Origin: Eubacterium sp.
GTDB lineage: Bacteria; Bacillota_A; Clostridia; Lachnospirales; Lachnospiraceae
DNA: 18,218 nt
Assembly (NCBI GenBank): GCA_017475785.1
Contig: JAFVEX010000178.1
Span: forward strand, 1-18,218
Reading direction: 5' to 3'
Both the position numbers and the translations under genes were made by a program. The notes under the pieces were generated by a model. That model was not told where the DNA came from and ran no database searches. It saw only the letters and a program-made list of their open reading frames with translations. The first letter of the stretch is position 1; each line of letters opens with the position of its first letter. Below, piece after piece: positions 2,928 to 18,218 of this stretch.

Positions 2928-3005
2928 GCGGCACCTCCAGATAAAGCAGCAAATAAATTATTCGAAAAAGCAACCAGATGAAGTAATCGCAAGTAGTTGT
3001 AATTC

Positions 3006-3192: not shown

Positions 3193-3265
3193 TCTGGATC
3201 AAAATTACGCGAAACTGAGAGTCAGATATTAGCCAGGAAATCACGCAGTATAAAGGAGAACGCCC

Positions 3266-5329
3266 ATGAACCAGCAATATGAAGCACTTTTTACGCCATG
3301 GAAAATCAGAGATCTGGAAATCAAAAACCGGATAGTCCTCGCGCCGATGGGCGGAACCTGCATCTTTGGATGGATGGAGCCGCTTGGAAGCCATTTTGAC
3401 AAGGAAGCAGCGCGGCTTCTCCTGAACGTCGCAAAAAACAACTGCGGCCTGGTCATCCCGGGCATCGCGCCTGTCAAGGACATGCTCGGAGGTAAATGGC
3501 TGTATCAGAACAAGCGGAAATTCAAAGAACTGAAATCATTCATGGATGAATTTCATAAAACCGGCGCGAAATTTTTCGTCCAGATGACGGCAGGATTCGG
3601 CCGTTCCATGGCCCTGACCGCGCCGCTCGCGATGCTTGCGAAGAACAAAATTCTGAACAAGATCGCCAGTCCTATTATCGACGCGGAATACCTGACCGCC
3701 GCGCCCAGCGTACTGCCGAACCGGTGGGCCGATGATGTCACAACACGCGCCATTACCCAGAAGGAAATCCACGACATCGTATATGCCTTCGGCGAGACAG
3801 CGCGGCTCTGCAAGGAAGCCGGCGTGGATGGCGTAGAGGTGCACGCCGTGCATGAAGGCTATCTTCTGGACCAGTTTACACTGAAATACTCCAACCAGCG
3901 GACCGATGAATACGGCGGTTCTTTTGAAAATCGCTACCGCTTCGCGGTTGAAATCGTTCAGGAAATCAAAGACCGCTGCGGAGAAGATTTCCCGGTCTCC
4001 CTGCGGTACTCAGTCCGCTCCATGACAAAGGATTTCCAGTACGGCGCCATGCCGGGCGAAGAATTTACGGAAATCGGCCGCGACATGGAAGAATCAGAAA
4101 AAGCAGTCAAATATCTGCAGGACGCAGGGTACGACATGCTGAACTGTGATAACGGCACCTATGACGCCTGGTACTGGGCACATCCGCCGCAATATATGCC
4201 CCTTAACTGCAACCTGGAGGATGTCTCTCACATCCGGCAGTTCGTAGACATCCCGGTTGTCTGCGCCGGCCGCATGCAGCCGGCTGACGGCGCAAAGGCC
4301 ATTCTGGACGGCGGGATCGACGCGATGGCCGTCGGACGCCAATTTCTGGCTGATCCCCGCTGGGTCACGAAGCTGATGCATGACCGCGAGGAGGACATCC
4401 GCCCGTGTATCTGCTGTCACACCGCCTGCTTCAACCTGACGAAGCACAACGGAACGGCGAATGACCAGGATCTCTCCGAATCCGCAGGCATGTGCCGCTG
4501 CGCAGTCAACCCGATCTCCATGCAGTCCACGAAATACTATGTCCGCCCGGCGAAAAAGCCGAAAACCGTAGCTGTCATCGGCGGCGGCATCGGCGGCATG
4601 GAGGCAGCGCGCATCCTGACGCTGCGCGGCCATAAGGTAACTCTCTACGAGAAAAGCGGCGAGCTGGGCGGCATCTTTATTGCGGCAGCCGCGCCGGATT
4701 TCAAGGAAAAAGACAAACAGCTGATCGAGTGGCTCAAGCGCCAGCTTGACCGCCTTGGCGTCGAAATCCACCTGAATACCGAGATTTCTGCAGCCAACCG
4801 GCCGCAGACTGACGAAATCATCATCGCGACCGGTGCGGAAGCAAACAGGATTCCGATCCCCGGCGCAGATGAATTCGCCATGGACGCGACCGATTATCTG
4901 CTCGGAAAGCAGGAAGCCGGCGACAATGTCGTCATCATCGGCGGCGGCCTGACCGGCTGCGAGATCGCGCTGGATCTGTTCCGCAAGGGAAAACACCCAG
5001 CCATTGTAGAGATGAAGGACGATCTGATCGCCGTCAAGAACATGTGCCTTGCGAACTCCAGTTACCTGCGCGACTGTTTTAAGACAAACGAAGTGCCGGT
5101 CTATCTCAATGCCGGCGTCAAGGGTATCACGGAAAATGAAGTCACAGTCGAGACACAGGACAAAAGCGTCGTGACGCTCCCGGCAGACAGTGTGATCATG
5201 TCCGTCGGATACCACCCGGTGCCGCTGTTTGAGGAAGACCAGAATGTGCACCTCCTTGGCGACTGCAAGAAGGTCGGAAATGTCCGCTCCGCGATCTGGG
5301 GCGCATGGGATATCGCGATGAAGATCTGA
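3266..5329 (+). CDS. Enoate reductase / 2,4-dienoyl-CoA reductase-like FMN-[4Fe-4S]-FAD oxidoreductase
   Basis: The 687 residues have the full old-yellow-enzyme plus flavin-reductase layout. An FMN TIM barrel runs from about 5 to 375, with LAPMGG (25-30), an active-site HAVHEGYLLDQF (193-204) and the ending ADPRW. The [4Fe-4S] site is C381-x2-C384-x3-C388 plus C412 (in RCAVNP). An FAD Rossmann motif GGGIGG lies at 439-444 and an NAD(P)H motif GGGLTG at 559-564. Known members reduce 2-enoates, 2,4-dienoyl-CoA or bile-acid intermediates, using NAD(P)H with electrons passed through FAD and the Fe-S cluster. The HAVHEGYL variant and nearby dehydratase genes favour a 2-enoate reductase-like role, as with FldZ in aromatic amino acid fermentation, but a bile-acid (BaiCD-like) or other enone substrate is possible. 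AAGGAG precedes the ATG by a normal spacing. Confidence 0.85.
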   Translation: MNQQYEALFTPWKIRDLEIKNRIVLAPMGGTCIFGWMEPLGSHFDKEAARLLLNVAKNNCGLVIPGIAPVKDMLGGKWLYQNKRKFKELKSFMDEFHKTGAKFFVQMTAGFGRSMALTAPLAMLAKNKILNKIASPIIDAEYLTAAPSVLPNRWADDVTTRAITQKEIHDIVYAFGETARLCKEAGVDGVEVHAVHEGYLLDQFTLKYSNQRTDEYGGSFENRYRFAVEIVQEIKDRCGEDFPVSLRYSVRSMTKDFQYGAMPGEEFTEIGRDMEESEKAVKYLQDAGYDMLNCDNGTYDAWYWAHPPQYMPLNCNLEDVSHIRQFVDIPVVCAGRMQPADGAKAILDGGIDAMAVGRQFLADPRWVTKLMHDREEDIRPCICCHTACFNLTKHNGTANDQDLSESAGMCRCAVNPISMQSTKYYVRPAKKPKTVAVIGGGIGGMEAARILTLRGHKVTLYEKSGELGGIFIAAAAPDFKEKDKQLIEWLKRQLDRLGVEIHLNTEISAANRPQTDEIIIATGAEANRIPIPGADEFAMDATDYLLGKQEAGDNVVIIGGGLTGCEIALDLFRKGKHPAIVEMKDDLIAVKNMCLANSSYLRDCFKTNEVPVYLNAGVKGITENEVTVETQDKSVVTLPADSVIMSVGYHPVPLFEEDQNVHLLGDCKKVGNVRSAIWGAWDIAMKI

Positions 5330-5334
5330 AAAGG

Positions 5335-5373
5335 GATCAGCCGTATCCCCTGGCAGGCGGAATACGGCTGATC
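5335..5373. terminator. Strong 12-bp inverted repeat after the ene-reductase gene
   Basis: GATCAGCCGTAT (5335-5346) pairs perfectly with ATACGGCTGATC (5362-5373) around a 15-nt loop, starting five bases after the ene-reductase stop codon. No clean T-run follows on either strand, so it may stall polymerase or protect the 3' end rather than act alone as a terminator. Confidence 0.55.
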
Positions 5374-5398
5374 AAGAAAGAAGGTAGTTATTATATTG

Positions 5399-5428
5399 GA
5401 AAACGCGGCTGTAATCAGCTGCGTTTTC
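5399..5428. terminator. Bidirectional intrinsic terminator between convergent genes
   Basis: GAAAACGC (5399-5406) pairs with GCGTTTTC (5421-5428), and the inner GCTG/CAGC pairs across a TAAT loop. With one G-T pair this gives a 13-bp stem. The A-run and T-run inside the arms and the following TTTCTC suit termination of the plus-strand gene. In reverse, GCGTTTTCC serves the minus-strand permease gene, whose stop codon (5415-5417) lies inside the hairpin. Confidence 0.65.
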
Positions 5429-6407
5429 TTTCTCTGAAGTTATCAAACGCGACCGCCGCGACAATGATAAATCCCTTAATAATCTGCTGCAGATAAGGTG
5501 ATACGCCCAGCAGCAGGAACCCATTATTGAGAATTCCCAGCAGCAGTACACCTACGATTATACCAGGAACAGTTCCGACACCCCCCGTCGTAGATACACC
5601 TCCGACTACGGCTGCCGCAATGGCGTCCAGTTCATATCCGTCTGCCATAGAAGGACTTCCCGCGCCGCTCCGTGCCGCTAGAAAGACTCCTACAAAACCT
5701 GCAAGTACACCCGACCAGATATAGGCCAGCAGCGTATTTTTTCTGACATTTATGCCAGACACAATTGCCGCATTGACATTACCACCGATCGCATACAGAC
5801 ACTTTCCGAATTTCATCTTATTGACCAACACCCAGGCCACCGCAAAAATAATCACCAGGTAAATGACCAGTATCGGTACAGGGCCGAACATCGTCTGTCC
5901 AAGTTTTTTAAAAGAATCGCTGACCATCGGAACCGTATGCGCATTTGTGTATGTCAGCGCAAAGCCGGTTGCGATCGTCGTCCCGCCTAGTGTCGCAATG
6001 AACGGCGGCACGTTGAAAAACACGATAACGGCTCCATTAAACGCTCCAATCACCAGGCCTACGAGAAGACCTGCCAGAAGTCCGACAACCGCAGGAGCAC
6101 ACTTTACATTCGGCAAAATCTTCTGCGCGTAATCAGATGCCTGAACCAAACTGGCAGACACACAGCTTGCGCACGCAGCAATTGACGCCACGGACAAATC
6201 AATTCCTCCCGTAATAATAACCAAGCCAACTGCCAGCGCGAGCACGCCTCTTCCAGATTCTGATACAAGTACATTCATCAGGTTGGTTGTGGACAGGAAC
6301 ACTGGGGAAAGAACCGACATGACGATGACCAGCAGAATCAGCACGATATAAATCGGATTCTTGCCGATAAAGCCGATAATATTATTTTGTGCTGCCTGCT
6401 TTTTCAT
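5415..6407 (-). CDS. Sugar ABC transporter permease (RbsC/YtfT family)
   Basis: The 330-residue, strongly hydrophobic protein has the BPD_transp_2 layout of monosaccharide importers, with about eight to ten membrane helices. Family hallmarks include LVIITGGIDLSV (about residue 60), the PPFIATLGG segment, YAIGGN followed by SGINV in the cytoplasmic coupling region, and AAAVVGGVSTTGGVGT. It would form the membrane pore with the ATPase encoded just upstream. The ATG overlaps the ATPase stop by four bases (ATGA, 6404-6407), which indicates tight translational coupling. It is the last gene of the operon and ends within the bidirectional terminator. The substrate is unknown. It is also the candidate membrane partner of the pseudo-ATPase encoded at 13101-14606. 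Confidence 0.9.
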   Translation of the reverse strand: MKKQAAQNNIIGFIGKNPIYIVLILLVIVMSVLSPVFLSTTNLMNVLVSESGRGVLALAVGLVIITGGIDLSVASIAACASCVSASLVQASDYAQKILPNVKCAPAVVGLLAGLLVGLVIGAFNGAVIVFFNVPPFIATLGGTTIATGFALTYTNAHTVPMVSDSFKKLGQTMFGPVPILVIYLVIIFAVAWVLVNKMKFGKCLYAIGGNVNAAIVSGINVRKNTLLAYIWSGVLAGFVGVFLAARSGAGSPSMADGYELDAIAAAVVGGVSTTGGVGTVPGIIVGVLLLGILNNGFLLLGVSPYLQQIIKGFIIVAAVAFDNFRERKRS

Positions 6408-7918
6408 ATCTTCGTTTCCTCCTTTTCTACGGTTTTTTTCGAAGCGAGTGTCATGATTGACACCTGATTCATCTCATTACGCTTCAATTCTCCGGCGACG
6501 CTCCCCTCACTCATAACTACGACGCGGTCACAGATTTTGATGAGTTCAGGCATTTCAGAAGAAACCACAATGACGCTTTTTCCTTCTGAAGAAAGCTGAC
6601 TGATGATCTGATAAATCTCTGTTTTGGCACCGACATCAATTCCTCTTGTAGGTTCGTCCAGAAGCAGAATATCCGGCTGAAGGAGCAGCCATCTGGAAAA
6701 CAAAACCTTCTGCTGATTTCCTCCTGAAAGATTTTCGATTTTTGTGCGCCATGAAGGTGTCTTGATCCGCAGCTTCCTGATATACGTTTCTGTCTGCTCC
6801 AGTCCGTTCCGGTTGGCAAAGAAGCCGAATCGGTTTGTCAGCTTATCATAATTTGCTGCCAGCATATTTTCCATAATATTCAAGCATCCGAAAATTCCAT
6901 CTTTTCGCCGCTCCTCGGTAACCAGTGCAAGGCCGGCAGCCTTTGCCTGACTGGAACTGCGGATATCTCTCACAATTCCCCCTATCTCCACTTCACCGGC
7001 CGTGCGCCTGCGAAGCCCGAATATCGTTTCGAGAACTTCACTTCTGCCGGCACCGACGAGACCACCCAGTCCCAATACTTCTCCGCGGTGCAGCTCAAAA
7101 CTGACATGATTAAATTTTTTACCATCTGACAGGTCTTTTACCCGCATGACGACCTCATCCGTCATTTTATTATTTGCCCGGACATCCTCGTCGTCGATTT
7201 TTCTGCCGACCATCTCACTGATCACGGAGGCTTCTGTAATTTCATTGATTGCGTGGCTGGCAATCCACTTGCCGTCACGGAATACTGTCACTTCATCGGC
7301 AATCCGAAAAATCTCGTCCATCTTGTGCGAGACATAGATGATGCTTACTCCACCTTTTTTCAGCTGCCCGATAATTTCAAACAACTGCTCCGTCTCTCTG
7401 TTGGTCAGTGTTGAGGTCGGCTCATCCATCATGACGACTCTGCTGTTAAAAGACACAGCCTTAACAATTTCTATCATCTGATTCTGTGCCACTGAAAGGT
7501 CTGCCATGATATCTGTCGGACGAATATCAAGGTGAAAGGAATTCAGCAGCGCAACCGTGTCATGATACATCTTTTTGTGATCCACAAAGATTCCCTTCAT
7601 CGGCTCACGTCCCAGCCAGATATTCTCCATGACACTTCTCTGATAGACTGGGGAGAGTTCCTGCTGGATAACGCTCAGGCCAAGCTCGTGCATCTGCCGC
7701 ACATTTCTTGGAATGACACGCTCACCGTCCAGATAGATTTCGCCTTCATCCATATGATAGATACCCAGAAGGCATTTTATCAGCGTAGATTTCCCCGCAC
7801 CGTTTTCTCCAAGAAGCGCATGTACTGTACCCGGACGAAGCTTCATATGCACCTTATCAAGTGCTTTGGTGCCAGGAAACTGCTTTGAGATATTTTTAAA
7901 TTCAAGCGCATATTCCAT
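6404..7918 (-). CDS. Sugar ABC transporter tandem ATPase (RbsA/MglA/XylG type)
   Basis: The 504 residues contain two nucleotide-binding halves. In the first, Walker A is GENGAGKST (37-45), the signature-like segment is LSVAQNQ (141-147), Walker B is VVMMDEP (161-167) and the H-loop is VSHKMDE (196-202). In the second, the Walker A position reads GGLVGAGRSE (285-294), the signature is LSGGNQQK (397-404) and Walker B with D-loop is LLLDEPTRGID (418-428). The degenerate second Walker A (GAGRSE) is usual in this family. The protein would power uptake through the downstream permease, using substrate captured by the lipoprotein encoded first in the operon. The ATG at 7918 has a GAGGTGA ribosome binding site. 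It is the intact counterpart of the motif-less protein at 13101-14606. Confidence 0.92.
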   Translation of the reverse strand: MEYALEFKNISKQFPGTKALDKVHMKLRPGTVHALLGENGAGKSTLIKCLLGIYHMDEGEIYLDGERVIPRNVRQMHELGLSVIQQELSPVYQRSVMENIWLGREPMKGIFVDHKKMYHDTVALLNSFHLDIRPTDIMADLSVAQNQMIEIVKAVSFNSRVVMMDEPTSTLTNRETEQLFEIIGQLKKGGVSIIYVSHKMDEIFRIADEVTVFRDGKWIASHAINEITEASVISEMVGRKIDDEDVRANNKMTDEVVMRVKDLSDGKKFNHVSFELHRGEVLGLGGLVGAGRSEVLETIFGLRRRTAGEVEIGGIVRDIRSSSQAKAAGLALVTEERRKDGIFGCLNIMENMLAANYDKLTNRFGFFANRNGLEQTETYIRKLRIKTPSWRTKIENLSGGNQQKVLFSRWLLLQPDILLLDEPTRGIDVGAKTEIYQIISQLSSEGKSVIVVSSEMPELIKICDRVVVMSEGSVAGELKRNEMNQVSIMTLASKKTVEKEETKI

Positions 7919-7933
7919 CAGCTAGTCACCTCT

Positions 7934-7987
7934 CTGTTTTTCAGAAACAGCGTCTGAGTCCGGCGCTGACTGCAAGAATCAGCGCCG
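7934..7987 (-). other. Two intercistronic stem-loops between the hydrolase and ATPase genes
   Basis: CGGCGCTGA (7961-7969) and TCAGCGCCG (7979-7987) form a perfect 9-bp stem with a 9-nt loop. Nearer the ATPase start, CTGTTT (7934-7939) and AAACAG (7945-7950) form a 6-bp stem with a 5-nt loop. Neither is followed by a proper T-run. They fit an RNA processing or stability element that could keep the binding-protein/hydrolase part of the message more abundant than the membrane-complex part. Confidence 0.5.
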
Positions 7988-7994
7988 CCTGGAA

Positions 7995-9119
7995 TCAGAC
8001 AATCGTCAGGACACTCTGCGGATTGCTGACAGAGAAACCTTCTATTGTCTTCTCATCAATTCCTTCTTCCAGCATTGTCCTGCGGAATTCTGTCAGCACA
8101 TGTGCCCAGCCCCATCCACCGTATTCTCGCAGATAGTACTTGTGGCCGGTATCGTGCGACAGCAGAATCTTGTCCGCAAAACCATGTCTGCAAAGCTCAT
8201 GAATACCTTTTGCCCGCTCTCTGTCAGACGGAAGCCACCAGTGTGCCTCGTCTGTTCTGAAATACGAACTGTTCCCGCACAGGTCAAACTCAATATACGC
8301 ACCCCTCTCCAGCAGCGACAGCAGGTAATCAATTCCCTGCTCGTATGTTCTTCCTGTCTGGCAAAGAAGTGAGTCACTGTGCCCCATCACGACACGCTCG
8401 GGATTGCCCCCGTTGCTGCTGATCAGATCCAGCGCCTCATGTCCGTTTCTGGCCGGCAGATGCATGTGAAGTGTAATCGCGAGACCTGTCTCTTTTTGCG
8501 CCGCTCCTGCCGCGCGGAGTACTTTTGCCTCTGAGGCCTCGATGATACTGCCGGTACCAAGTTCTCCGATAATACCTGGTCTGACGCCTGTGTCGCCGAA
8601 TCCGTCTTCCACGGCTCTGATATAGAGATCCGCGACCTGGTCATCTGTCATTTCCGCAAGCGCAGGGTCCCGGACACCCATTGTAATGGGGCTTTCCCCT
8701 CCTGTTTTTGAAGAAGCAAGGTAGTGACCAAATCCGGCTACAACCTGAATACCGGATGATTTCGACAGATCAACCAGCATCGGCATATACGCAGCCATCA
8801 CCCCTTCATGGACGCCGCCCGGCGTGACATCAACAATCGTCTGCCCGCCTGCAATTTTAAAATAAGACATTTCACGGAGCGTCAGCTCACGATCCATATT
8901 TATACAGTTATCACGATTGCTGTAGGGGTCATTTGCGATCCTGTGAAGATTTTTCAGCGTCATCGGCTCGTAGAAAAACGCTGTCTGTTCTGGTGTCTCA
9001 TGTTCAGACCGGTATGCCGTCAGATCAAAATACAGGTGTTCATGCATCAGTGTCCTGCCAAGCTGCTCCGGCTCAATCGATCCGAGCACAGACATGACCT
9101 TCCCTTTGTTGTCTCCCAT
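7995..9119 (-). CDS. Phosphotriesterase-family metal-dependent hydrolase (PTE-like lactonase/esterase)
   Basis: The 374-residue protein has the amidohydrolase binuclear-metal pattern of the phosphotriesterase family: LMHEHLYFD with H26 and H28, GIIGELG with E186, LHMHLP with H218/H220, VMGHSD with H247 and LLSHDTG with D323. A Glu at the bridging position, instead of the carboxylated Lys of classical phosphotriesterases, is seen in PTE-homology subgroup members. Characterised relatives include lactonases acting on sugar lactones or their phosphates, so hydrolysis of an imported sugar lactone or ester is a reasonable inference. There is no signal peptide, so it acts in the cytoplasm. The gene lies between the binding-protein and ATPase genes, which ties its substrate to the transporter. 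GGGAGGAAT precedes the ATG. Confidence 0.85.
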   Translation of the reverse strand: MGDNKGKVMSVLGSIEPEQLGRTLMHEHLYFDLTAYRSEHETPEQTAFFYEPMTLKNLHRIANDPYSNRDNCINMDRELTLREMSYFKIAGGQTIVDVTPGGVHEGVMAAYMPMLVDLSKSSGIQVVAGFGHYLASSKTGGESPITMGVRDPALAEMTDDQVADLYIRAVEDGFGDTGVRPGIIGELGTGSIIEASEAKVLRAAGAAQKETGLAITLHMHLPARNGHEALDLISSNGGNPERVVMGHSDSLLCQTGRTYEQGIDYLLSLLERGAYIEFDLCGNSSYFRTDEAHWWLPSDRERAKGIHELCRHGFADKILLSHDTGHKYYLREYGGWGWAHVLTEFRRTMLEEGIDEKTIEGFSVSNPQSVLTIV

Positions 9120-9149
9120 TATTCCTCCCTGTTGTCTGTTAAATCCGGA

Positions 9150-10217
9150 TCACATGTAATCTGCAATATTATCTTTTGTGACCAGCTCCGGAGAAATCTC
9201 AAAGAGTGACTCCGTAAGGTTTCCATCCAGAATCTTCATAGCTGCGTCAAGCGCGATGTCCGCCTGGTCATAGGCAATCTGAATTGCAGTGCAGTCCATT
9301 TCATTTTTGCTGATAGAATCAAACGCCGCGGCAATTCCATCTACACCACCAACAGCAACCTGATCCATATCTACACCTGCTGCTTTCAGTGCCTCGACAG
9401 AACCTAGCGCGATCTCATCACATCCGGCAATGACACAATTAACATTTTTGCCGGAGCCAAGCACCTGCTGCGTTTTCTGCAGACCTTCCGTGCGGTCCCA
9501 GCTGCAGTTGTCCTCAAGCTGACAGTTTGTCGGCAGTCCAGATTCCTCGAGTGCCTGAATTGCCCCTTCATACCGCTGAATCGCGTTCTGCGCGGTCAAT
9601 TCTCCGATCAGATTCAGATAGTTAATCTCCTCAGCTCCAGACTCTTTGACCTGCTCCGCCAGATATTGTCCCATTATATAACCCATATCTGTCTCATTTG
9701 TTCCGACGTAACAGCTCTTTCCTTCCGGAAGTACACTCATATCAGTCGGCTGTCTGTTTGTAAAGACAACAGGAATGTCTCCGGCCGCCGCCAGAATTTC
9801 CGGCGCGCCGTTAAAGTCAGAAAGGCTGATAATGATCAGATCGGCGCCCTGAGATTTGAAAACCGCTACATTATCCAGATCTTTCTGTGCGTCCAGATTC
9901 GCGTCAAGCGGCCCAAGGATCTCAACATTCGGATATTTCTCCTTTGCGATTTTGTCAAAATAAGAAAGCTGTTCTGAGAAAAACTCGTTCTGCATCAGAC
10001 AACATGAAATGCCGATCTTAATTTCGTCACCTGATGCAGCTTTCGAATCAGATGTGTCCGCTGCAGAAGATCCTGATGGCGCTTCCGCTGCTGCGCTGCT
10101 TCTGGATGAAGAAGTTCCCGTTGATGATGCTGAACTGCCGGTATTCCCACCGCACGCCGCAAGACTCATAACCATACATGCCGCAAAAAAGCCTGTCAAA
10201 ATTTTTTTCAGTTTCAT
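9150..10217 (-). CDS. Sugar-type ABC transporter substrate-binding lipoprotein
   Basis: The 355 residues begin with a lipoprotein signal: basic MKLKK, a hydrophobic core and the lipobox LAAC with lipidated C22. A long Ser/Ala/Thr-rich linker follows (about 26-63). The mature domain is a periplasmic-binding-protein type I (Peripla_BP_4) fold: IKIGISC (about 66-72), ADLIIISLSD, IPVVFTNR, YVGTNETDMGY, CVIAGCDEIALG and VAVGGVDGI. It would be anchored outside the membrane, capture the solute and deliver it to the RbsC-like permease. It is the first gene of the operon, with AAAGGAG before ATG 10217, and is read away from the divergent two-component operon. The ligand cannot be read from the sequence. 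It may also be the extracellular sensing element for that system. Confidence 0.92.
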   Translation of the reverse strand: MKLKKILTGFFAACMVMSLAACGGNTGSSASSTGTSSSRSSAAAEAPSGSSAADTSDSKAASGDEIKIGISCCLMQNEFFSEQLSYFDKIAKEKYPNVEILGPLDANLDAQKDLDNVAVFKSQGADLIIISLSDFNGAPEILAAAGDIPVVFTNRQPTDMSVLPEGKSCYVGTNETDMGYIMGQYLAEQVKESGAEEINYLNLIGELTAQNAIQRYEGAIQALEESGLPTNCQLEDNCSWDRTEGLQKTQQVLGSGKNVNCVIAGCDEIALGSVEALKAAGVDMDQVAVGGVDGIAAAFDSISKNEMDCTAIQIAYDQADIALDAAMKILDGNLTESLFEISPELVTKDNIADYM

Positions 10218-10530
10218 ATCGAACTCCTTTCAAGTTAAGTTCAAAGATCGTTTCCTGTGAATCCGGGCGCCTGGATGTCAACTCGTAAAAATCTTCCAGA
10301 GAATCTTTATCCTTGCTTTATCTTAACGGCTCTCAAGGTCTGAGAAAACTGCACATCTTCGGAAAAAGTGTGTTTTTTTCAGGTATTTAAAATAATCATT
10401 TCTTCAAGAATGATCATACTACTCATAAATTAGATTGTTTCATTCAAATATCCGTGACATTTGCGCGCTTATGATCTATACTGTGATTGTAATTGTCATT
10501 CTGTTCAAAAAAACAATTTCGGAGTATTTT
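10218..10530. promoter_or_regulatory. 313-bp divergent control region with dyad at 10395-10414
   Basis: This gap separates the transporter operon (minus) from the response-regulator operon (plus). It contains an imperfect dyad, ATCATT (10395-10400) and AATGAT (10409-10414), with the inner CTT/AAG also symmetric, and a smaller one, TCTCA (10331-10335) with TGAGA (10341-10345). Either could be a site for the AraC-type regulator encoded next door. A plus-strand promoter is listed separately. For the minus operon I found only weak boxes, the best being TTGAGA with a poor AGGATA 17 bp on, which is consistent with an activator-dependent promoter. Confidence 0.45.
10454..10482 (+). promoter_or_regulatory. 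Sigma-A-type promoter for the two-component operon
   Basis: GTGACA (10454-10459) and TATACT (10477-10482) are spaced by 17 bp and each differs from consensus at one position. Transcription would start near 10489, leaving a leader of about 42 nt before the ATG at 10531 with its GGAG ribosome binding site. This argues against the earlier in-frame ATG at 10435. Confidence 0.6.
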
Positions 10531-12135
10531 ATGTTGAAGGTGATCATTGTAGACGATGAACCGCGCATCTGCCAGATGATAACGGTTCTAATAGACTGGC
10601 AGTCACTGGGTTACCAGATCATCGGAACTGCCAGCAACGGTAATGACGCTCTGCGCCTGGTTGATGAACTGCATCCGGATGTGATGATTACAGATATCCG
10701 GATACCAGGTATTAATGGAATCGAGTTAATTGAGCAGGCCAAAATTACGCATCCTGAACTTGACTTTATTATTATCAGCGGATTCCGCCATTTTGACTAT
10801 GCCTACAGTGCGATTCAGAGTGGTGTAGAATATTATCTTCTTAAACCCATCGAGGAGGAAGATCTGATACATGCCCTGAAGAAAATCCGTGAAAAACGAG
10901 AAAAGTCTGAACAATCCCGTCTATACCAGAAGCAGGCAGAGGTGGCACTGCATGAGACGAAGCAAAACCGGCGTATCACATTAGTTCACTCCTTGTACAA
11001 AGGGGAGGAAGCAATCACTGATATAGATACTCTGAATAAGGCTTACAGCTGTTCTTTTGCAGCTGGCATCTTCCAGAGTGTCATACTGCATCTGGACAGC
11101 ACCAGGAATAATCCCTCAGAGAAGCATCTGCTCTCTGTCAAATTTCAGGAGTCTGTCACGATGTCTTATGCTTCTGTGACTGGCTTGTACGATCTGGTAA
11201 CCGGTGACACGCCATATGGGATATGCATCATCTTAAATTATCCAGAGGAACTTTCTGAACAGATCCTGTCCTGCCATTCCCAGCTGTTTGAGTACTGCCG
11301 CCGCCACGCAGATACCTTCAATGGATATCATGTAACGCTTGGCATCAGCTCTGAGCGGAAGGACATTTCATGTCTTGGTGAACTCATCCGGCAATCGCGC
11401 GCTGCCATCCGAAGCCGTATTATTTCCGGAACAGACCGGATGATCTATGCGTCTGACTGCAGTTCTTCCGGTAATAAGAAAAGCTATTTTACTGCGCGTC
11501 ATGAAACAGAACTGCGTCTGCTGATTGAAAATAACAGACAAGAAGATCTGGAGCGCTGGTTTCACGCATTCTGCTCTGAACTGTCTGGTCTCAGCACCCT
11601 GTCTGCGGACTCACTTTATCAGACATGCCGCGATCTGCTGGAGGCAGTTTCATTTATCCTGCACAAGCTTCCCGACAGCGTATTTTCACGCTCCGGTTTT
11701 GACCAGGAATCCTCGCAATTGATCAATGAACCTTCCATGCGGCAGTTGTTCAGCGGAATCTGCAATCTGATACAAAAGCACATGCAGCAGTATTTCTCCC
11801 AAAAGTCCCAGGAGACTTCCCACATGGTGCGTGCGGCGCGGGAATATATCAAGAACCACTATGCAGAGCCAATCAGGCTGGAAGACGCAGCCCGCGCGGC
11901 AACTTATCATCCGAACTATTTTTCCGGTGTTTTCAAACAGGAAACCGGGATGAATTTTTCTGAATATCTGACGGAAGTCCGGATCGATGCCGCGAAGGAA
12001 CTTCTCCGGAACACCCGCATGAGCATACGCGCAGTAGCTGAACAAGTCGGATACAAGGATGAAAAACATTTTTCAAAATCTTTCAAAAAAACAGTCGGTG
12101 TGAGTCCAAAGGATTATCGCAAACTCTATGCATGA
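10531..12135 (+). CDS. YesN-type response regulator with AraC-family DNA-binding domain
   Basis: The protein (534 residues from ATG 10531) has an N-terminal receiver domain: acidic VDDE (8-10), phospho-acceptor D55 in VMITDIRIPG, and the conserved Lys of LLKP (K105). A long middle region of about 300 residues with no recognised motif follows. An AraC-type double helix-turn-helix occupies the last 99 residues, with IRLEDAARAATYHPNYFS and IRAVAEQVGYKDEKHFSKSFK. Such regulators normally activate carbohydrate uptake operons after phosphorylation by a YesM-type kinase. The first Met of the longer frame (10435) is rejected, because it would place the promoter inside the gene and MLKVIIVDDEP is the normal receiver start. 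The divergent sugar transporter operon is the obvious target. Confidence 0.9.
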   Translation: MLKVIIVDDEPRICQMITVLIDWQSLGYQIIGTASNGNDALRLVDELHPDVMITDIRIPGINGIELIEQAKITHPELDFIIISGFRHFDYAYSAIQSGVEYYLLKPIEEEDLIHALKKIREKREKSEQSRLYQKQAEVALHETKQNRRITLVHSLYKGEEAITDIDTLNKAYSCSFAAGIFQSVILHLDSTRNNPSEKHLLSVKFQESVTMSYASVTGLYDLVTGDTPYGICIILNYPEELSEQILSCHSQLFEYCRRHADTFNGYHVTLGISSERKDISCLGELIRQSRAAIRSRIISGTDRMIYASDCSSSGNKKSYFTARHETELRLLIENNRQEDLERWFHAFCSELSGLSTLSADSLYQTCRDLLEAVSFILHKLPDSVFSRSGFDQESSQLINEPSMRQLFSGICNLIQKHMQQYFSQKSQETSHMVRAAREYIKNHYAEPIRLEDAARAATYHPNYFSGVFKQETGMNFSEYLTEVRIDAAKELLRNTRMSIRAVAEQVGYKDEKHFSKSFKKTVGVSPKDYRKLYA

Positions 12136-12162
12136 TATGCTGCCGACAGAAAGGACGGGCAA

Positions 12163-13101
12163 TTGACTGACCGAAAAAGGTGGAACTTGATTTGTATCCT
12201 ATTTGATCTGACGCTTCTAACCGCAGGGATCAGGTCTGGAATTCATCTGTTCTGGATTCTTTGTGTCATCCGTCTGACTGCTGACATGATGGCGCTCTGG
12301 TATGATTCTGAAGGATCCAATCCTTCTATATCAGATGTCACTGAAACAGATGACCCGGTTATGGCAGCGCAGTTATTCCCTGATGATGATTCGGATCTGG
12401 AAAAAAACCTGCTGAATCGTCAAGTCGAATTTCAGAATCTGCAGAGTCAGATTAACCCGCATTTTTTATACAATACCCTGGAGTCAATCCGTGGGCAGGC
12501 ACTGATTGACGGCGCTCCGGAAATCGCCAATATGACAAAGGCACTCTCTGCGTATTTCCGGTACAGCGTCAGTACATCCGCTGATCTGGTTCGTCTCGAA
12601 GATGAACTCCGCAATATTCGCAATTATTTCGTCATTCAACAATACCGGTTCGGCAGCAAACTGACGATGGATATTACCTTCGAAGATCCCGAAGCTATCT
12701 GCAATGACATTCTTTTACCCAAACTTACACTGCAACCAATTCTGGAAAACGCTATTTTTCATGGACTGGAGCCAGGTACTAAGCCTGGACATCTGCAAAT
12801 TACTGTCACCACAACGCAGTCCCGATTGCTGATCATGGTCTCGGACAATGGTGTCGGCATCGATTCAGAAACACTGGCTGCTCTGAATGATAAACTGGAA
12901 CATGGAGGCATTGAGGCTGACAGTCATTCCGCATCAAAGCATTCAGGAATTGCACTGATTAATGTCAACAAACGAATTCAACTATGTTTCGGACAAGCCT
13001 ACGGGCTACATGTAAGGAGTATTCCGGACATCGGAACAGATGTTGAAATTATCACGCCGATCGTGCGGAAAACAGAACCGGGAAAGGATCGCATATTCTG
13101 A
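12163..13101 (+). CDS. YesM-type histidine kinase without extracytoplasmic sensor domain (TTG start)
   Basis: The 312-residue protein contains the His_kinase H-box QSQINPHFLYNTLESIRG (H100), N-box LQPILENAIFHG (190-201), G1 box SDNGVGID (227-234) and G2 segment HSGIALINVNKR (260-271). The N-terminus has just two hydrophobic stretches (about 7-24 and 27-45) joined by a few residues, then a linker at 46-85. YesM kinases usually have a large extracellular sensor and a HAMP domain; both are missing. The TTG at 12163 is preceded by GAAAGGA, and earlier ATGs in this frame are closed by stops. It lies 27 bp after the response regulator and overlaps the pseudo-ATPase start by one base (TGATG), so the three genes form one operon. 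Its signal must come from another protein. Confidence 0.85.
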   Translation: MTDRKRWNLICILFDLTLLTAGIRSGIHLFWILCVIRLTADMMALWYDSEGSNPSISDVTETDDPVMAAQLFPDDDSDLEKNLLNRQVEFQNLQSQINPHFLYNTLESIRGQALIDGAPEIANMTKALSAYFRYSVSTSADLVRLEDELRNIRNYFVIQQYRFGSKLTMDITFEDPEAICNDILLPKLTLQPILENAIFHGLEPGTKPGHLQITVTTTQSRLLIMVSDNGVGIDSETLAALNDKLEHGGIEADSHSASKHSGIALINVNKRIQLCFGQAYGLHVRSIPDIGTDVEIITPIVRKTEPGKDRIF

Positions 13102-14606
13102 TGAGACGTGAACTGCTCCGTATTGAACAGCTATATAAGCAGTACCATGGACTTCCGATTCTCCGGGGTCTGACCATGAATGTCTATGAAGGAGAAGTAC
13201 TCGGCCTTCTCTCTTCATCTCAGGATGAAAAATTTGTTTTGGGAAAGATCCTGTCCGGCTCCGAGCCGGCAGACAGAGGACGTCTTTTTTTCATGGATCG
13301 CCTGCTTACTTTTAAAAACAATATTCTCCGCAGTGCAGCAGTCTACATTGGACCAGAGCCAGGTGTCGCGCCGAATATGACAATTGCGGAGAACTTTTAT
13401 CTGGCCGACTCTGAGAGCAGTCTGTTTTTTTCAAAGAGAAAAGCTCTGACGGTTACACAGGACTGTCTGGATGAGCTGAGTCTTTCTTTTGACGCATCAT
13501 GGAAAGTTGATCGACTAAATCATTTTGAACAGCGACTGGTAGAAATTGCAATCGCGTATTATACAGGAAAAAAGCTGATCCTTATTGACCAGCTTGTCGA
13601 CGAGCCTCTGACTTCACCAAATTACCGGGAGGCGTTTTATACTTTGATGTCTCACTTAAAGCAGAGAGGAATTTCTGTTATCCTCATGACTGCGTCTGTG
13701 CCGGATATCATGTATTTCTGCAGCAGAGCTACAGTTCTCCGTGACGGAACAGACGTCAAAACATTTTCTGAACACCAGTTTGATACACAATTGTTCAATC
13801 AGGTATTCCTTGGCACCTATTATTATTCAGAAGCCGACCGTCATCATCAGCCGGATGATTCTGACGACCATGCAGTCATCCTGCATTTTCAGACAAGGGT
13901 TTCTTTCCCGGATCAGCAGGCTGCCACACTCTCCTGCAAGATACGCCGTGGTGAAATTGTCGGTATCATTGACTATGGAAATCTTTATGTCTCTGAACTG
14001 ATGTTGTTTGCCGACCCAAAGGCTTCACCTCTTTCTGTGCGCGGTATCATCAATGACACAACATTCAAATTCACGAACCTGCACACTGCACTGCAAAAAG
14101 GCATCGGTTTTCTGTATGGAGGCACATCGCCTGACCAGATTTATCATAAGCAGGACGCACGTTTCAACCTGGACATCACTCTCAATCAAAAGCCTTCTCT
14201 GAATCCCTTTTCCATAAAAGAAAAACAGCTTACTGTGCTGCTGGATGACTTTCACCTCAGGGAACTGGCCGAATCCTGTCCAGACCCGGAAGCAATTAAT
14301 CAGCTGTCTGTCATAGACCGTCAGCAGATGATTTTGGGGCGCTGGCTGATCGCCCGGCCGCGTGTGCTCATCTGTGTAAATCCTTATGCACATTTTCAGC
14401 CGGATCTGATCCGTCTGACCAACCAGTATTTTGACCGCCTTGCCACAAACGGCACTAGCGTCCTGATATTTCACAATTATCTTCCGATTATTACCCCGCT
14501 GTATGACCGCCTGATTTTCGCGGAACGCGGAGAGAAACGTGTGGAACTATGGGGACATGAACTTCAGGAGCCTTATCTCTTTCTGAAGGAGAATACGGAT
14601 CAGTAA
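13101..14606 (+). CDS. Catalytically dead tandem ABC-ATPase paralogue in the two-component operon
   Basis: The 501-residue protein keeps the layout and length of RbsA-type tandem ATPases (504 for the neighbour at 6404-7918), but the nucleotide motifs are lost in both halves. At the first Walker A, LLGENGAGKSTL is replaced by LLSSSQDEKFVL (36-47), keeping only K44. The signature is RLNHFEQR (138-145). Walker B reads LILIDQ (159-164), with Gln for the catalytic Glu, and the H-loop His is A198. In the second half Walker A is replaced by IIDYGNLYVSEL (289-300), LSGGNQQK by LSVIDRQQ (402-409) and LLLDEPTRGID by LICVNPYAHFQ (423-433). The frame is intact, so this is not a recent pseudogene. Retained features such as GEVLGLL, TVLRDG and GRWL show the ancestry. 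Conservation of the docking fold without ATPase residues suggests a regulatory or scaffolding role. Confidence 0.85.
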   Translation: MRRELLRIEQLYKQYHGLPILRGLTMNVYEGEVLGLLSSSQDEKFVLGKILSGSEPADRGRLFFMDRLLTFKNNILRSAAVYIGPEPGVAPNMTIAENFYLADSESSLFFSKRKALTVTQDCLDELSLSFDASWKVDRLNHFEQRLVEIAIAYYTGKKLILIDQLVDEPLTSPNYREAFYTLMSHLKQRGISVILMTASVPDIMYFCSRATVLRDGTDVKTFSEHQFDTQLFNQVFLGTYYYSEADRHHQPDDSDDHAVILHFQTRVSFPDQQAATLSCKIRRGEIVGIIDYGNLYVSELMLFADPKASPLSVRGIINDTTFKFTNLHTALQKGIGFLYGGTSPDQIYHKQDARFNLDITLNQKPSLNPFSIKEKQLTVLLDDFHLRELAESCPDPEAINQLSVIDRQQMILGRWLIARPRVLICVNPYAHFQPDLIRLTNQYFDRLATNGTSVLIFHNYLPIITPLYDRLIFAERGEKRVELWGHELQEPYLFLKENTDQ

Positions 14607-15788
14607 TTACGCGGCAGCCTGTTTTCCAAAAACATGCTTCCACAATATGTTGGCGAGCACCAGCGCAGTCAGTCCGCCGGCAAATTTCGCCGCCATCATC
14701 GGCACGATCAGCTGCTGATTAATGCCGGCCACAAAGCCCAGGTGATCGCCCAGGACAAAGCAGGCAGATACTGTGAATGCGCAGTTGAGAACCTTCCCTT
14801 TTGGCTTCATATCTTTCATCATTCCGAACATCATAATGTTGTTCGCAAGATTTGCGATCATTCCGCCGACACTGTTTTCATCCAGATCAAACTTCCCGCC
14901 AAGCTTCTGCAGCGGACTGCTGAATTTCTTTGTGATAAAAGCGACCATCGGAAACGCGCCCAGCAGCACGATCGCAATTTCACCGATGACGAGAAAGCCG
15001 TCCTCCAGCGGCACAACGCCCTCTGCGTTTGCCTCAACCATCACATGAAACAGAGGCAGGCGGATACCGGTCAGATACTGTGCAACCGCGATGACTGTTC
15101 CAGCCGTCACGACAGCCGTGACGCCCTTGCCAAACGCGATAAATCCCTTCAGCATCTTTTCCTGCGCGAGAATCAGTCCAAGGATGATCAGAACGGCCAC
15201 TGCCACCACCGGAATGGTGTTCATAATGATGTCTTTGACCGTCAAAGCAAAGCCAGACGCCTTCATCACAAAGCCGCCTGCCAGACAGCCGATCGGAACT
15301 GTTGCGAATCCTACAAGCATGCCGGTCGCCAGATATTTGCGGTCTGCTTCCCTGATAATCCCCATTCCAACAGGAATGTTGAAAACAATGTTGATTCCCA
15401 TGATTGAGGCAATGATCATTCCTGTGAAGCTGCCGACGGCTTCCGACTCTGCCAGTTCCATGGCGAGCGGGTAGCCTCCCAGGTCACATCCCAGCAGAAT
15501 TCCCGCAAACAGGGAGGGATCTGCACCGATCGCCCTGAAAAAGGCACCCAGAACGCCGCCCAGTACAATCTTGATCACCGGTACGAGCGCGATCATTCCG
15601 ATCATGGCCAGTGCGAGAGAGCCCAGCGCCTGAAAGCCCTCCTCAAATTTTTCTCCGTAACCCAGTCTGTTTCCGCGGATCCTGTCGATACCGCCGACAA
15701 ACAGGAAGACCACCATGATCAACATGATTGCCTTGTTCAGTGAGAAAGACGCAAGATACGTCTGCAGAGAATCTGTAAAAATCGTCAT
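14607..15788 (-). CDS. eutH: EutH-type ethanolamine permease
   Basis: The 393-residue protein is very hydrophobic with about ten to eleven membrane segments. It resembles EutH along its length: GGIDRIRGNRLGYGEKFEEG (33-52), the LLGCDLGGYPLA segment, NIPVGMGII, VVPLEDGFLVIGEIAIVLLG, and FVLGDHLGFVAG near the C-terminus. EutH passes ethanolamine across the inner membrane, mainly when external concentrations are low. No other eut gene lies in this window, so it is an orphan locally; another amine substrate is possible. The gene ends directly against the stop of the plus-strand pseudo-ATPase with no spacer. Upstream GAGGGG lies about 13 bp before the ATG, a longer spacing than its neighbours have. 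Confidence 0.88.
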   Translation of the reverse strand: MTIFTDSLQTYLASFSLNKAIMLIMVVFLFVGGIDRIRGNRLGYGEKFEEGFQALGSLALAMIGMIALVPVIKIVLGGVLGAFFRAIGADPSLFAGILLGCDLGGYPLAMELAESEAVGSFTGMIIASIMGINIVFNIPVGMGIIREADRKYLATGMLVGFATVPIGCLAGGFVMKASGFALTVKDIIMNTIPVVAVAVLIILGLILAQEKMLKGFIAFGKGVTAVVTAGTVIAVAQYLTGIRLPLFHVMVEANAEGVVPLEDGFLVIGEIAIVLLGAFPMVAFITKKFSSPLQKLGGKFDLDENSVGGMIANLANNIMMFGMMKDMKPKGKVLNCAFTVSACFVLGDHLGFVAGINQQLIVPMMAAKFAGGLTALVLANILWKHVFGKQAAA

Positions 15789-15813
15789 AACAAAAGTATC
15801 CCCTCAGAAGTCT

Positions 15814-15875
15814 GTGTAAAATGCCTGCCGCAGCACTCTGACATGCAACTGCTCACTAACAGAAACATTTTACAC
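15814..15875. repeat. Pair of 10-bp inverted sequences upstream of eutH
   Basis: GTGTAAAATG (15814-15823) and CATTTTACAC (15866-15875) are perfect inverted copies 52 bp apart centre to centre, about five helical turns. They lie in the 249-bp gap 15789-16037, in the eutH leader or promoter. They could be paired operator half-sites for looping. The rest of the gap holds weak stem-forming sequences such as GTCGG/CCGAC near 15980, and no gene I can support. Confidence 0.5.
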
Positions 15876-16037
15876 ATTCTTTTTCGGAGATACCGTTCTT
15901 CCACAAGTATTTTCTTTGCAGAATTTCAGGTATTATCAAAGGATTGTTCGTGGGCGTGAAGCGAGTGGATTGTCGGCGGACGTTCTGCCCCGACATAGAA
16001 AATGGGAGACGTTTTCGCTTCCCGGATCAGATACGAT

Positions 16038-16445
16038 TTACTGCGCGATCTGTAGCCGTTCCTTCAATGCGTCCTGCAATACCTGCGAGAAATTGACGTT
16101 TCTCTCGGCCGCGGCTGCATTTAACCACGCCGGCAACGTAACGGTCCGGTTAACCGATCGGTTAATATTGGCCATTCTGATGGACGGCATATAAACGTCA
16201 ACCAGGACGACTCTCTCGTTCGCTTCAGCCTTAACGTCTTTCAACTTTGAGGGAACCGGAATATCGTCGCCATCTTCTTCGATGCCAAACATTGTAATTC
16301 CGAGACACTCGCGCGCAGAAATCAGGGCGTCATCGTCATCAATGCCGCTGGTTGCCACGTCGAGATCCGGGAAGAATACCGCGATCTCCTGATCTTCTTC
16401 ATAGCTGAAGACAGCCGGGTAAAAATAACGTTCCGCTTTTTTCAT
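16038..16445 (-). CDS. hicB: HicB-type antitoxin
   Basis: The 135-residue protein starts MKKAERYFYPAVFSYEEDQE, the HicB degenerate RNase-H-like fold that binds HicA, with VFFPDLDVATSG (24-34) and DDDALISARECLG as family marks. The C-terminal part (about 99-131) looks like a ribbon-helix-helix DNA-binding domain: NRTVTLPAWLNAAAAERNVN, then FSQVLQDALKERL. HicB neutralises HicA and, with this domain, represses the hicAB promoter. The start at 16445 is preferred because AGGAGG lies 9 bp upstream; the earlier in-frame ATG (16466) would place that ribosome binding site inside the gene. It lies 34 nt downstream of hicA. Confidence 0.88.
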   Translation of the reverse strand: MKKAERYFYPAVFSYEEDQEIAVFFPDLDVATSGIDDDDALISARECLGITMFGIEEDGDDIPVPSKLKDVKAEANERVVLVDVYMPSIRMANINRSVNRTVTLPAWLNAAAAERNVNFSQVLQDALKERLQIAQ

Positions 16446-16473
16446 TGTGATAATCCTCCTATGCATGGAGGGT

Positions 16474-16500
16474 TCGGGGCTATCTGAACCGCAGCCCCGA
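16474..16500 (-). other. Hairpin overlapping the hicA stop codon
   Basis: TCGGGGCT (16474-16481) and AGCCCCGA (16493-16500) form a perfect 8-bp stem with an 11-nt loop. It spans the last hicA codons and the TAG stop at 16480-16482, and lies just before the hicB ribosome binding site. It could modulate the ratio of toxin to antitoxin translation or protect the message. Confidence 0.45.
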
Positions 16501-16677
16501 TTGGCGTTCGATACTATCCAGCGTTTTTCTCGGAATGTCCTTGTCAGGATGTTTTACTGTGACTCTTCCAAGTTTTGTCGGATGCTTGTACTGGTGGTGG
16601 CTTCCGACCACATTCACTTCGTACCATCCGTCCGCCAGCAGTTCTCTAATAACCTCCCTCGATGAATATGACTTCAT
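16480..16677 (-). CDS. hicA: HicA-type mRNA interferase toxin
   Basis: The 65-residue protein has the double-stranded RNA-binding-like HicA fold. MKSYSSREVIRELLADGWYE is followed by VGSHHQYKHP (24-33), with the catalytic His expected at H27. VTVKHPDKDIPRKTLDSI then matches the family's third strand and C-terminal helix. HicA cleaves mRNA and stops growth when HicB is lost. The gene precedes hicB in one operon, with AGGAGGG before its ATG and the promoter at 16701-16729. Confidence 0.9.
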   Translation of the reverse strand: MKSYSSREVIRELLADGWYEVNVVGSHHQYKHPTKLGRVTVKHPDKDIPRKTLDSIERQSGLRFR

Positions 16678-16700
16678 GTCATTTCCCTCCTGACGCCTTC

Positions 16701-16729
16701 ATCTTAACAAATATAATTGTATGTGTCAA
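16701..16729 (-). promoter_or_regulatory. hicAB promoter with internal dyad
   Basis: On the minus strand TTGACA (16724-16729) and TAAGAT (16701-16706) are separated by exactly 17 bp, a near-consensus sigma-A promoter. The spacer contains ACAAATATAATTGT (16707-16720, plus strand), symmetric at 12 of 14 positions, which is a reasonable operator for autoregulation by the HicB ribbon-helix-helix domain. Confidence 0.65.
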
Positions 16730-16797
16730 CATTACGGGCGGCATAAAGACAAATGTTGGCAGGCGCCGGGTCGTGCCAATTTATACAAAGATCCGAG

Positions 16798-16826
16798 GGC
16801 TACCTGCTGGCTACCTGCTGGCTACC
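16798..16826. repeat. 11-bp tandem repeat, 2.6 copies
   Basis: GGCTACCTGCT occurs at 16798-16808 and 16809-16819, followed by GGCTACC at 16820-16826. It lies between the hicAB promoter and the GGGtGRT gene terminator, in a 214-bp stretch with no gene. It is probably slippage-generated sequence with no clear role. Confidence 0.7.
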
Positions 16827-16837
16827 GATGACAGCAA

Positions 16838-16874
16838 AGGGCTCGCCACCGCATCTCTGCAAATGGCGAGCCCT
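16838..16874 (-). terminator. Intrinsic terminator of the GGGtGRT operon
   Basis: AGGGCTCGCCA (16838-16848) and TGGCGAGCCCT (16864-16874) form a perfect 11-bp GC-rich stem with a 15-nt loop, 17 bases after the stop codon of the minus-strand gene. The tail on that strand is TTTGCTGT, a modest T-run. Confidence 0.65.
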
Positions 16875-16891
16875 TGATTTTACTGGATTTT

Positions 16892-17911
16892 TCAGAATTT
16901 GCCTTCGTCTGCTGCCTGCTGTACCGCTACCGCAACTGCCACGGTCATTCCGACCATCGGGTTGTTGCCGGCGCCGATCAGACCCATCATCTCGACGTGC
17001 GCCGGCACGGATGAGGATCCTGCGAACTGCGCGTCGGAATGCATACGGCCGAGTGTATCGGTCATGCCGTAGGAAGCCGGTCCTGCCGCCATGTTGTCGG
17101 GATGGAGGGTACGGCCTGTGCCGCCGCCGGACGCGACAGAGAAGTACTTCTTGCCTGCCTCAATACGCTCTTTCTTGTAGGTGCCTGCTACCGGGTGCTG
17201 GAAGCGGGTCGGGTTTGTGGAGTTTCCGGTGATAGAAACGTCTACATTCTCTTTCCAGAGGATCGCGACGCCTTCCTGCACGTCGTTTGCTCCGTAGCAG
17301 TTAACCTTTGCGCGCGGGCTCTCCGGATCTTTGGAATAGCACTTGCGGAAAACTTCCTTCAGTTCGCCGGTGTGGTAGTCATACTCTGTCTCAACATGTG
17401 TGAATCCGTTGATGCGGGAAATGATCTGCGCGGCGTCCTTTCCAAGACCATTCAGAATGACGCGGAGTGGTTTCTGGCGGACTTTGTTAGCTTTCTCGGC
17501 GATGCCGATTGCGCCCTCTGCCGCCGCAAAAGATTCATGTCCTGCCAGGAACGCGAAGCACTCTGTGTCCTCTTCCAGAAGCATCTTGCCGAGGTTGCCG
17601 TGTCCGAGGCCGACCTTACGTCTGTCAGCGACAGATCCCGGAATGCAGAAGGACTGCAGTCCTTCGCCGATCGCCGCTGCCGCGTCTGCAGCCTTGCGGC
17701 AGTTTTTCTTAATCGCGATCGCGGCACCGACGGTGTACGCCCATTTTGCGTTCTCGAAGCAGATCGGCTGAATATTCTCTACCTGGTGATAGACGTCCAG
17801 GCCTGCCGCCTTCGTGATCTCTGCAGCTTCTTCGATTGAGTTGATTCCGTACTCAGCGAGCTTTGCCAGAATCTGTTTTTCTCTTCTTTCATATGATTCA
17901 AATAAAGCCAT
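16892..17911 (-). CDS. GGGtGRT-family protein
   Basis: The 339-residue protein carries the family's name motif GGGTGRT (262-268) in ASGGGTGRTLHPDNMAAG, followed by GRMHSDAQFAGSSSVPAHVE and GLIGAGNNPMVGMTVAVAVA. Earlier conserved-looking parts include GLGHGNLGKMLLEEDTECFA (101-120) and LAGHESFAAAEGAIGIAEKA. Cys residues lie at 51, 71, 89, 118, 191 and 205. The family is widespread in anaerobic Firmicutes and has no established function that I know. GAGGAGG precedes the ATG at 17911, 16 nt after the stop of the upstream gene, so the two are co-transcribed. No signal peptide or membrane segment is visible, so it should be cytoplasmic. Confidence 0.88.
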   Translation of the reverse strand: MALFESYERREKQILAKLAEYGINSIEEAAEITKAAGLDVYHQVENIQPICFENAKWAYTVGAAIAIKKNCRKAADAAAAIGEGLQSFCIPGSVADRRKVGLGHGNLGKMLLEEDTECFAFLAGHESFAAAEGAIGIAEKANKVRQKPLRVILNGLGKDAAQIISRINGFTHVETEYDYHTGELKEVFRKCYSKDPESPRAKVNCYGANDVQEGVAILWKENVDVSITGNSTNPTRFQHPVAGTYKKERIEAGKKYFSVASGGGTGRTLHPDNMAAGPASYGMTDTLGRMHSDAQFAGSSSVPAHVEMMGLIGAGNNPMVGMTVAVAVAVQQAADEGKF

Positions 17912-17927
17912 CTTTTACGTCCTCCTC

Positions 17928-18218
17928 TCAGTCTTTCCTCGGGTCAATCAGTCTGGCAGCATCCGCGACGCGTCCGTACTGGCCCTTTGCCTTCTCATAT
18001 GCTGTGTTCGCGTCATCGCCTGCTTTAATGAAATCCATCATTCTTCCGAAGTTGATGAATTTGTAGCCGATGATCTCGTCATCTTCGTCGAGCGCGATAT
18101 CTGTGACATAGCCCTCTGCCATCTCGAGATAACGCGGACCCTTTGCAAGTGTTCCGTACATTGTGCCGACCTGAGAGCGGTTGCCTTTTCCGAGATCCTC
18201 GAGACCGGCGCCGATGAC
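17928..18218 (-). CDS. C-terminal 96 residues of a protein encoded upstream of GGGtGRT (5' end outside window)
   Basis: The frame is open from the right edge (VIGAGLEDLGKGNRSQVGTM) to TGA at 17928-17930. It continues MYGTLAKGPRYLEMAEGYVT, an acidic DIALDEDDE, then GYKFINFGRMMDFIKAGDDA and a basic C-terminus. From memory, the gene before GGGtGRT is often annotated as an iron-sulfur cluster assembly scaffold (NifU-like) protein. The segment seen here lacks the N-terminal cluster-binding Cys that would prove this, so the family is uncertain. The ATG at 18161 is internal, not a start: the reading continues upstream without a stop, and no ribosome binding site precedes that Met. Confidence 0.6.
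   Translation of the reverse strand, partial: VIGAGLEDLGKGNRSQVGTMYGTLAKGPRYLEMAEGYVTDIALDEDDEIIGYKFINFGRMMDFIKAGDDANTAYEKAKGQYGRVADAARLIDPRKD

Follow-up and report, generated by a model that had tools for sequence, protein, structure and literature searches.

A catalytically degenerate RbsA-like tandem ATPase co-encoded with YesM/YesN-type signalling proteins in Eubacterium sp.: a candidate adaptor between a sugar importer and a sensorless kinase

Why would a signalling operon retain a full-length relative of a sugar-importer ATPase from which most of the catalytic motifs have been lost? This question is raised by an 18,218-nucleotide stretch of Eubacterium sp. DNA (GenBank assembly GCA_017475785.1, contig JAFVEX010000178.1, positions 1 to 18,218; hereafter the window), in which a response regulator, a histidine kinase and an RbsA-like tandem pseudo-ATPase are encoded divergently from a sugar ATP-binding cassette (ABC) importer with its own ATPase. 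A first-pass annotation had proposed that the dead ATPase reports on the transporter to the kinase, making the transporter the receptor. In the light of the present analysis, the observation holds up after correction, and the mechanism is a well-founded hypothesis short of proof. The answer favoured here, tentatively and with somewhat less than an even chance of being right, is a transporter-linked three-component system in which a dead RbsA-like adaptor couples the state of the importer to the kinase. The gene order and the one-base overlap described for the trio were borne out by the sequence:

10531..12135, plus strand: YesN-type response regulator, 534 amino acids (open reading frame and sequence; PF00072 receiver and PF12833 AraC-type helix-turn-helix in Pfam)
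12163..13101, plus strand: short YesM-type histidine kinase, 312 amino acids, TTG start (PF06580 and PF02518, HATPase_c; model; hydropathy)
13099..13103, plus strand: TGATG, in which the kinase stop and the pseudo-ATPase start share one base (sequence)
13101..14606, plus strand: RbsA-like tandem pseudo-ATPase, 501 amino acids (end-to-end AraG, YtfR and RbsA matches far under cut-offs; fold model)

The third protein has a single Pfam ABC_tran match, confined to its first half (42.5 bits; cut-off 25). Nine NCBIfam models of tandem sugar ATPases nevertheless align with it nearly end to end, with scores of 79-126 bits against cut-offs of 586-850. The best of them, AraG (126 bits versus 689), stays below its family cut-off, a test that is weak on its own, as the intact RbsA of the window also scores below the curated cut-offs. 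Two fused nucleotide-binding domains (NBDs) are indicated by the full-length match and by a confident tandem fold model (predicted local distance difference test, pLDDT, 84.7). Its identity with the importer's own intact RbsA is 19-21%. No RbsA entry appeared among the PDB matches listed, which is no evidence of absence.

Relatives were sought both with the pseudo-ATPase itself and with a two-member alignment (A2), each search considering 7997 candidates and returning 4792 and 4931 matches, respectively, from which the best 120 each were kept; together they yielded 182 listed proteins, beyond which remote dead relatives may be hidden. Motifs were compared with 179 of these (the 182 minus P0001, which is the pseudo-ATPase, P0002 and the truncated P0059). 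According to the alignment, the losses comprise the P-loop glycines and Ser/Thr, the Walker B Glu, the switch His, the second LSGGQ and the second Walker B:

13212..13238, plus strand: first Walker A, residues 38-46, SSSQDEKFV versus GENGAGKST, with Lys44 kept (alignment)
13587..13592, plus strand: end of the first Walker B, residues 163-164, Asp-Gln versus Asp-Glu (strand-based reading; model strand 159-163)
13692..13694, plus strand: switch His replaced by Ala198 (alignment)
14304..14327, plus strand: second signature, residues 402-409, LSVIDRQQ versus LSGGNQQK (alignment)
14376..14381, plus strand: second Walker B, Val426-Asn427 versus Asp-Glu (alignment)

The claim that all catalytic positions are altered therefore holds for most motifs of both halves and fails for Lys44, which lines up with the invariant Walker A Lys, and for one Walker B Asp. 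The first Walker B has two possible readings, since the predicted strand 159-163 (LILID) terminates in Asp163 and leaves Gln164 in the place of the catalytic Glu, whereas the alignments place DEP 167-169 there instead. The second signature and second Walker B are indeed altered, but degeneration of the second site is no peculiarity of this protein, as most ordinary RbsA relatives also lack the Lys of the second-site Walker A, and the same is stated of the second-half Walker A of Bacillus subtilis RbsA and NupO in PMC11466899. The unusual feature of the pseudo-ATPase is the loss of the one consensus ATP site that a functional RbsA/MglA protein possesses (Walker A1, Walker B1 Glu, switch His and the LSGG of half 2), with the ambiguity at Walker B1 just described. 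Following the first Q-loop, the alignment shows the residues AEN (A96 E97 N98) to be kept.

The surviving Walker residues bear on the alternative that ATP is still bound, with the help of Lys44 and Asp163, and that the protein acts as a binding-only switch within a kinase complex. Lys44, Asp163 and, on one reading, a Gln where the catalytic Glu would be expected would suit such a switch, and the second dead relative introduced below retains most of Walker A; the P-loop glycines, the Ser/Thr for Mg and the partner signature are all missing, however, and this alternative is considered very improbable.

As a separate observation, a consistent half-altered variant was encountered in eight RbsA relatives (P0013, P0021, P0022, P0025, P0036, P0069, P0075 and P0105; one from Erysipelothrix larvae), in which the first Walker A and switch His are intact, DET stands at Walker B1, the second Walker A reads GLSxCGMH and the second Walker B reads DCP.

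Could the gene simply be a relic, that is, a former RbsA gene under relaxed selection and on its way to being lost from the operon? Very fast evolution and wide motif loss fit such a scenario, and genes of this kind do decay, as exemplified by the rbsA-like gene of Rodentibacter myodis (L001, 9808-11019), which is broken over two frames. Against it, the 501-codon frame is open despite about 20% identity to RbsA, a state with a probability of 6e-12 from base composition alone, and conserved positions are retained more often outside the motifs (49/76) than inside them (12/48; P0059 excluded). Because of the open frame, this difference in conservation and the confident tandem fold, plain decay is unlikely, and the earlier proposals of an intact frame and of selection that keeps the fold without hydrolysis are both supported. 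With core positions retained and a second lineage probable, the relic explanation is regarded as quite improbable. An apparent better preservation of the first half than of the second was dropped, as non-motif positions (32/47 versus 17/29) differ in no clear way.

The case for function would be strengthened if the arrangement recurred. Among the 182 listed proteins, only the pseudo-ATPase's own cluster and P0002, a 494-residue JGI protein that is 26-27% identical to the pseudo-ATPase, have lost both switch His and second signature; the search for degenerate RbsA-like homologues suggested at the outset thus found one such protein and no further case in that set. P0001 and P0002 have 13 rare residues in common, including Asp406 and Val426, which belong to the second signature and the second Walker B, respectively; the 181 others average 2.8 and reach 10 at most. 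In a tree of 47 rows from which motif columns had been removed, the two were joined with a support of 96/89; their branches are long (4.36 and 1.78; median 1.03), and the bootstrap is unsettled.

The kinase search provides a candidate partner for P0002. P0199, a 323-residue YesM kinase that is 50% identical to the window kinase over 241 residues, lies on a JGI contig whose size, 10771 bases, is exactly that of the contig carrying P0002. Given the density of kinase contig sizes, 0.003 matches to this size were expected, a figure that applies as P0002 had already been singled out as the other dead protein. Both proteins also have an amino-acid make-up of the type found with high guanine-cytosine (GC) content (GARP/FYMINK ratios of 1.56 and 1.19 for P0002 and P0199), and only 5 of the 120 listed kinases exceed P0199 in this ratio. 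On account of the equal size and the matching GC-rich make-up, P0002 and P0199 very probably share one contig, and the pairing of a dead ATPase with a short kinase very probably recurs, which argues against a one-off accident. Another size coincidence, at 2935 bases (P0111 and P0293, with an intact ATPase), was rejected as chance, with about 0.87 matches expected over the ATPase list and disagreeing make-ups.

What, then, could such a kinase sense? Together with the regulator it shows the Pfam features of a YesM/YesN two-component system (PF06580 plus HATPase; receiver plus AraC-type helix-turn-helix), and it contains the positions that are invariant across an alignment of 33 kinases (among them LQxQIxPHFLYNT and QPxxEN). 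Its model consists of helices 3-21 and 24-50 separated by a two-residue turn, a low-confidence linker, and then the dimerisation and ATPase domains; this predicted hairpin, with no sensor domain in the model, supports its earlier description as sensorless. The 120 listed kinases, including that of the window, span 229-389 residues, the search having taken only proteins of 0.55-1.75 times the query length, a range outside which long YesM kinases fall. By hydropathy, a two-segment hairpin was found in 44 of 60 kinases, the H-box pattern having missed the other 60 of the 120. Named kinase relatives belong to Oscillospiraceae, Lachnospiraceae, Christensenellales and unclassed Bacillota or Clostridia, from which a clostridial host is probable.

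A kinase without a sensor domain, whose gene overlaps that of the pseudo-ATPase by one base, could also suggest that the kinase is the sole partner of the pseudo-ATPase, which would scaffold or inhibit it, perhaps sensing a nucleotide, a sugar phosphate or another cytoplasmic metabolite through its remodelled ATP sites, with the importer as the regulated target. That the apparent recurring partner is a kinase (P0199, with P0002) agrees with this alternative; no ligand is known, and the retained RbsA architecture, including A96 E97 N98, allows a permease-facing surface, which counts weakly against it. It is judged rather unlikely.

The adaptor reading, for its part, requires an importer within reach. 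The annotated divergent importer with its own intact ATPase was confirmed, the motifs of its RbsA being complete:

5415..6407, minus strand: RbsC/MglC-type permease (PF02653, BPD_transp_2; MglC the best model)
6404..7918, minus strand: RbsA/MglA-type ATPase with intact motifs (MglA the best model, 615 bits versus a cut-off of 828)
7995..9119, minus strand: phosphotriesterase-family hydrolase within the importer operon (PF02126)
9150..10217, minus strand: the importer's MglB/RbsB-like binding protein (PF13407; MglB the best model)
10218..10530, no strand: divergent intergenic region, 313 bases between the regulator and binding-protein genes

No direct repeats were found in the divergent region, and promoter-like matches between 10150 and 14700 were near chance level (10 seen versus 6.9 expected). 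The pseudo-ATPase might also act as a brake, a dominant-negative subunit that takes the place of the real RbsA on the permease and limits uptake without direct signalling. Its homology to the importer's working ATPase and the loss of its catalytic motifs would suit this role, but it is co-encoded with the kinase rather than with the importer, and the brake is thought improbable.

Several neighbouring genes deserve mention. The phosphotriesterase-family gene sits between the binding-protein and ATPase genes and may point to a lactone or phosphoester substrate. A EutH family gene (14607-15788) is convergent with the pseudo-ATPase gene, with 0 bases separating the stop codons. Farther along the window, 16038-16466 gives a HicB-like antitoxin match slightly below the Pfam cut-off (25.4 bits versus 27), and 16892-17911 encodes a GGGtGRT family protein (a strong match, 617 bits).

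How widespread is the arrangement? Six Bacillota loci from a plasmid collection, chosen non-randomly from kinase or regulator matches (searches of that collection with the regulator and with the kinase relative P0205 served solely this choice), were compared; in 4 of the 6, a binding-protein-like gene lies beside the kinase-regulator pair, with a sugar ABC operon next to it:

L005, Agathobacter: kinase-regulator pair, binding-protein-like gene and sugar ABC operon; RbsA intact
L006, Enterococcus raffinosus: binding-protein-like gene; divergent layout as in the window; RbsA intact
L007, E. faecium: binding-protein-like gene; divergent layout as in the window; RbsA intact
L012, Acetoanaerobium: binding-protein-like gene; RbsA intact; unannotated, genes called by eye
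L003, Subdoligranulum: kinase operon without a binding-protein-like gene; no RbsA relative
L004, Butyrivibrio: kinase operon without a binding-protein-like gene; no RbsA relative

A scan of genome contigs yielded two loci and no close relative, these being the broken Rodentibacter gene and a single NBD of a different kind (L002). Viral contigs contained no match for alignment A2 or for the window kinase, and a kinase alignment (A4) matched four viral loci (L008-L011), in none of which an RbsA relative was found. For the pseudo-ATPase, the plasmid collection offered nothing above 26.7% identity (best 20 of 1847 records), and no DNA match to the window was obtained there; the top match of P0002 in it reached 36.4% (best 15 of 2847), all 15 being annotated as ABC ATP-binding proteins.

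A number of these results weigh against the adaptor reading. A dead ATPase was found in none of the six Bacillota loci, the RbsA of L005, L006, L007 and L012 being intact. Only one other instance is available, its kinase pairing deduced from equal contig size, and among the 118 kinase relatives that remain in the list, none matches the contig size of a site-less protein. The join of P0001 and P0002 carries a long-branch warning, as such joins may be false, and the very fast evolution of the pseudo-ATPase (terminal branch 4.36 versus a median of 1.03) fits relaxed constraint too.

An adaptor role for the dead ATPase between importer and kinase, with putative contacts to both, is what we infer from these data. 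The protein would act from the cytoplasm, docking on the RbsC-type permease, either by itself or as a competitor of the real RbsA, and also on the hairpin or linker of the kinase. Occupancy or the conformational state of the importer would then set kinase activity, the kinase would phosphorylate the regulator and, as family knowledge suggests for both steps, the regulator would act on the divergent promoter region and adjust importer expression. The bolder proposal, in which a catalytically dead tandem-ATPase relative bridges the permease and the sensorless YesM kinase, the importer is the receptor and the whole represents a class of clostridial three-component systems built on a pseudoenzyme, is possible but doubtful.

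Regulation of gene expression by ABC ATPase subunits has precedents in MalK-MalT and PstB-PhoU-PhoR, although MalK and PstB are active ATPases, unlike the pseudo-ATPase. XylFII-LytS-YesN is a three-component system in which a transporter-derived accessory is co-encoded with a kinase and a regulator near a sugar ABC operon. CuaD-CuaS-CuaR of Ruminiclostridium cellulolyticum, a characterised example of the binding-protein version, resembles the window in combining a co-encoded kinase and regulator with such an accessory close to an ABC operon for sugars. According to PMC10384115, CuaD binds its kinase at the outer domain, and its proposed role is to enable the detection of very low cellobiose. 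In the XylFII and CuaD systems, the accessory, a binding protein outside the cell, contacts an extracellular domain of the kinase, whereas in the window the third gene encodes a dead ABC-ATPase relative, no extracytoplasmic binding protein is co-encoded in its place, and the kinase model has a hairpin instead of an extracytoplasmic domain. The pseudo-ATPase would thus fill the role of the binding protein from the cytoplasmic side.

Bce modules also have a kinase without a sensor domain, as predicted for the window, here one of the intramembrane-sensing type, with the ABC transporter as the proposed sensor, and they need functional BceAB for kinase activation (PMC10314905). Their ATPase is active and their permease of the BceB type, whereas the window has a BPD_transp_2 permease and a dead ATPase relative, with no BceB-type permease or active ATPase co-encoded with the kinase. 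Because Bce kinase activation needs functional BceAB, a Bce-like flux read-out would have to borrow hydrolysis from the real RbsA. RbsA, MglA and NupO likewise consist of two fused NBDs with one site already degenerate (PMC11466899); unlike them, the pseudo-ATPase has lost the consensus site too and sits in a signalling operon. In the titles and abstract openings of the open-licence papers listed, no dead sugar ATPase in a two-component operon was found. Short sensor-domain-less YesM kinases are numerous among the matches listed, and we know of no signal that they sense; a retained dead transporter motor suggests an answer, namely that the importer is the receptor. If true, a whole tandem ABC pseudoenzyme would join binding proteins and active ATPases among the transporter parts reused in signalling.
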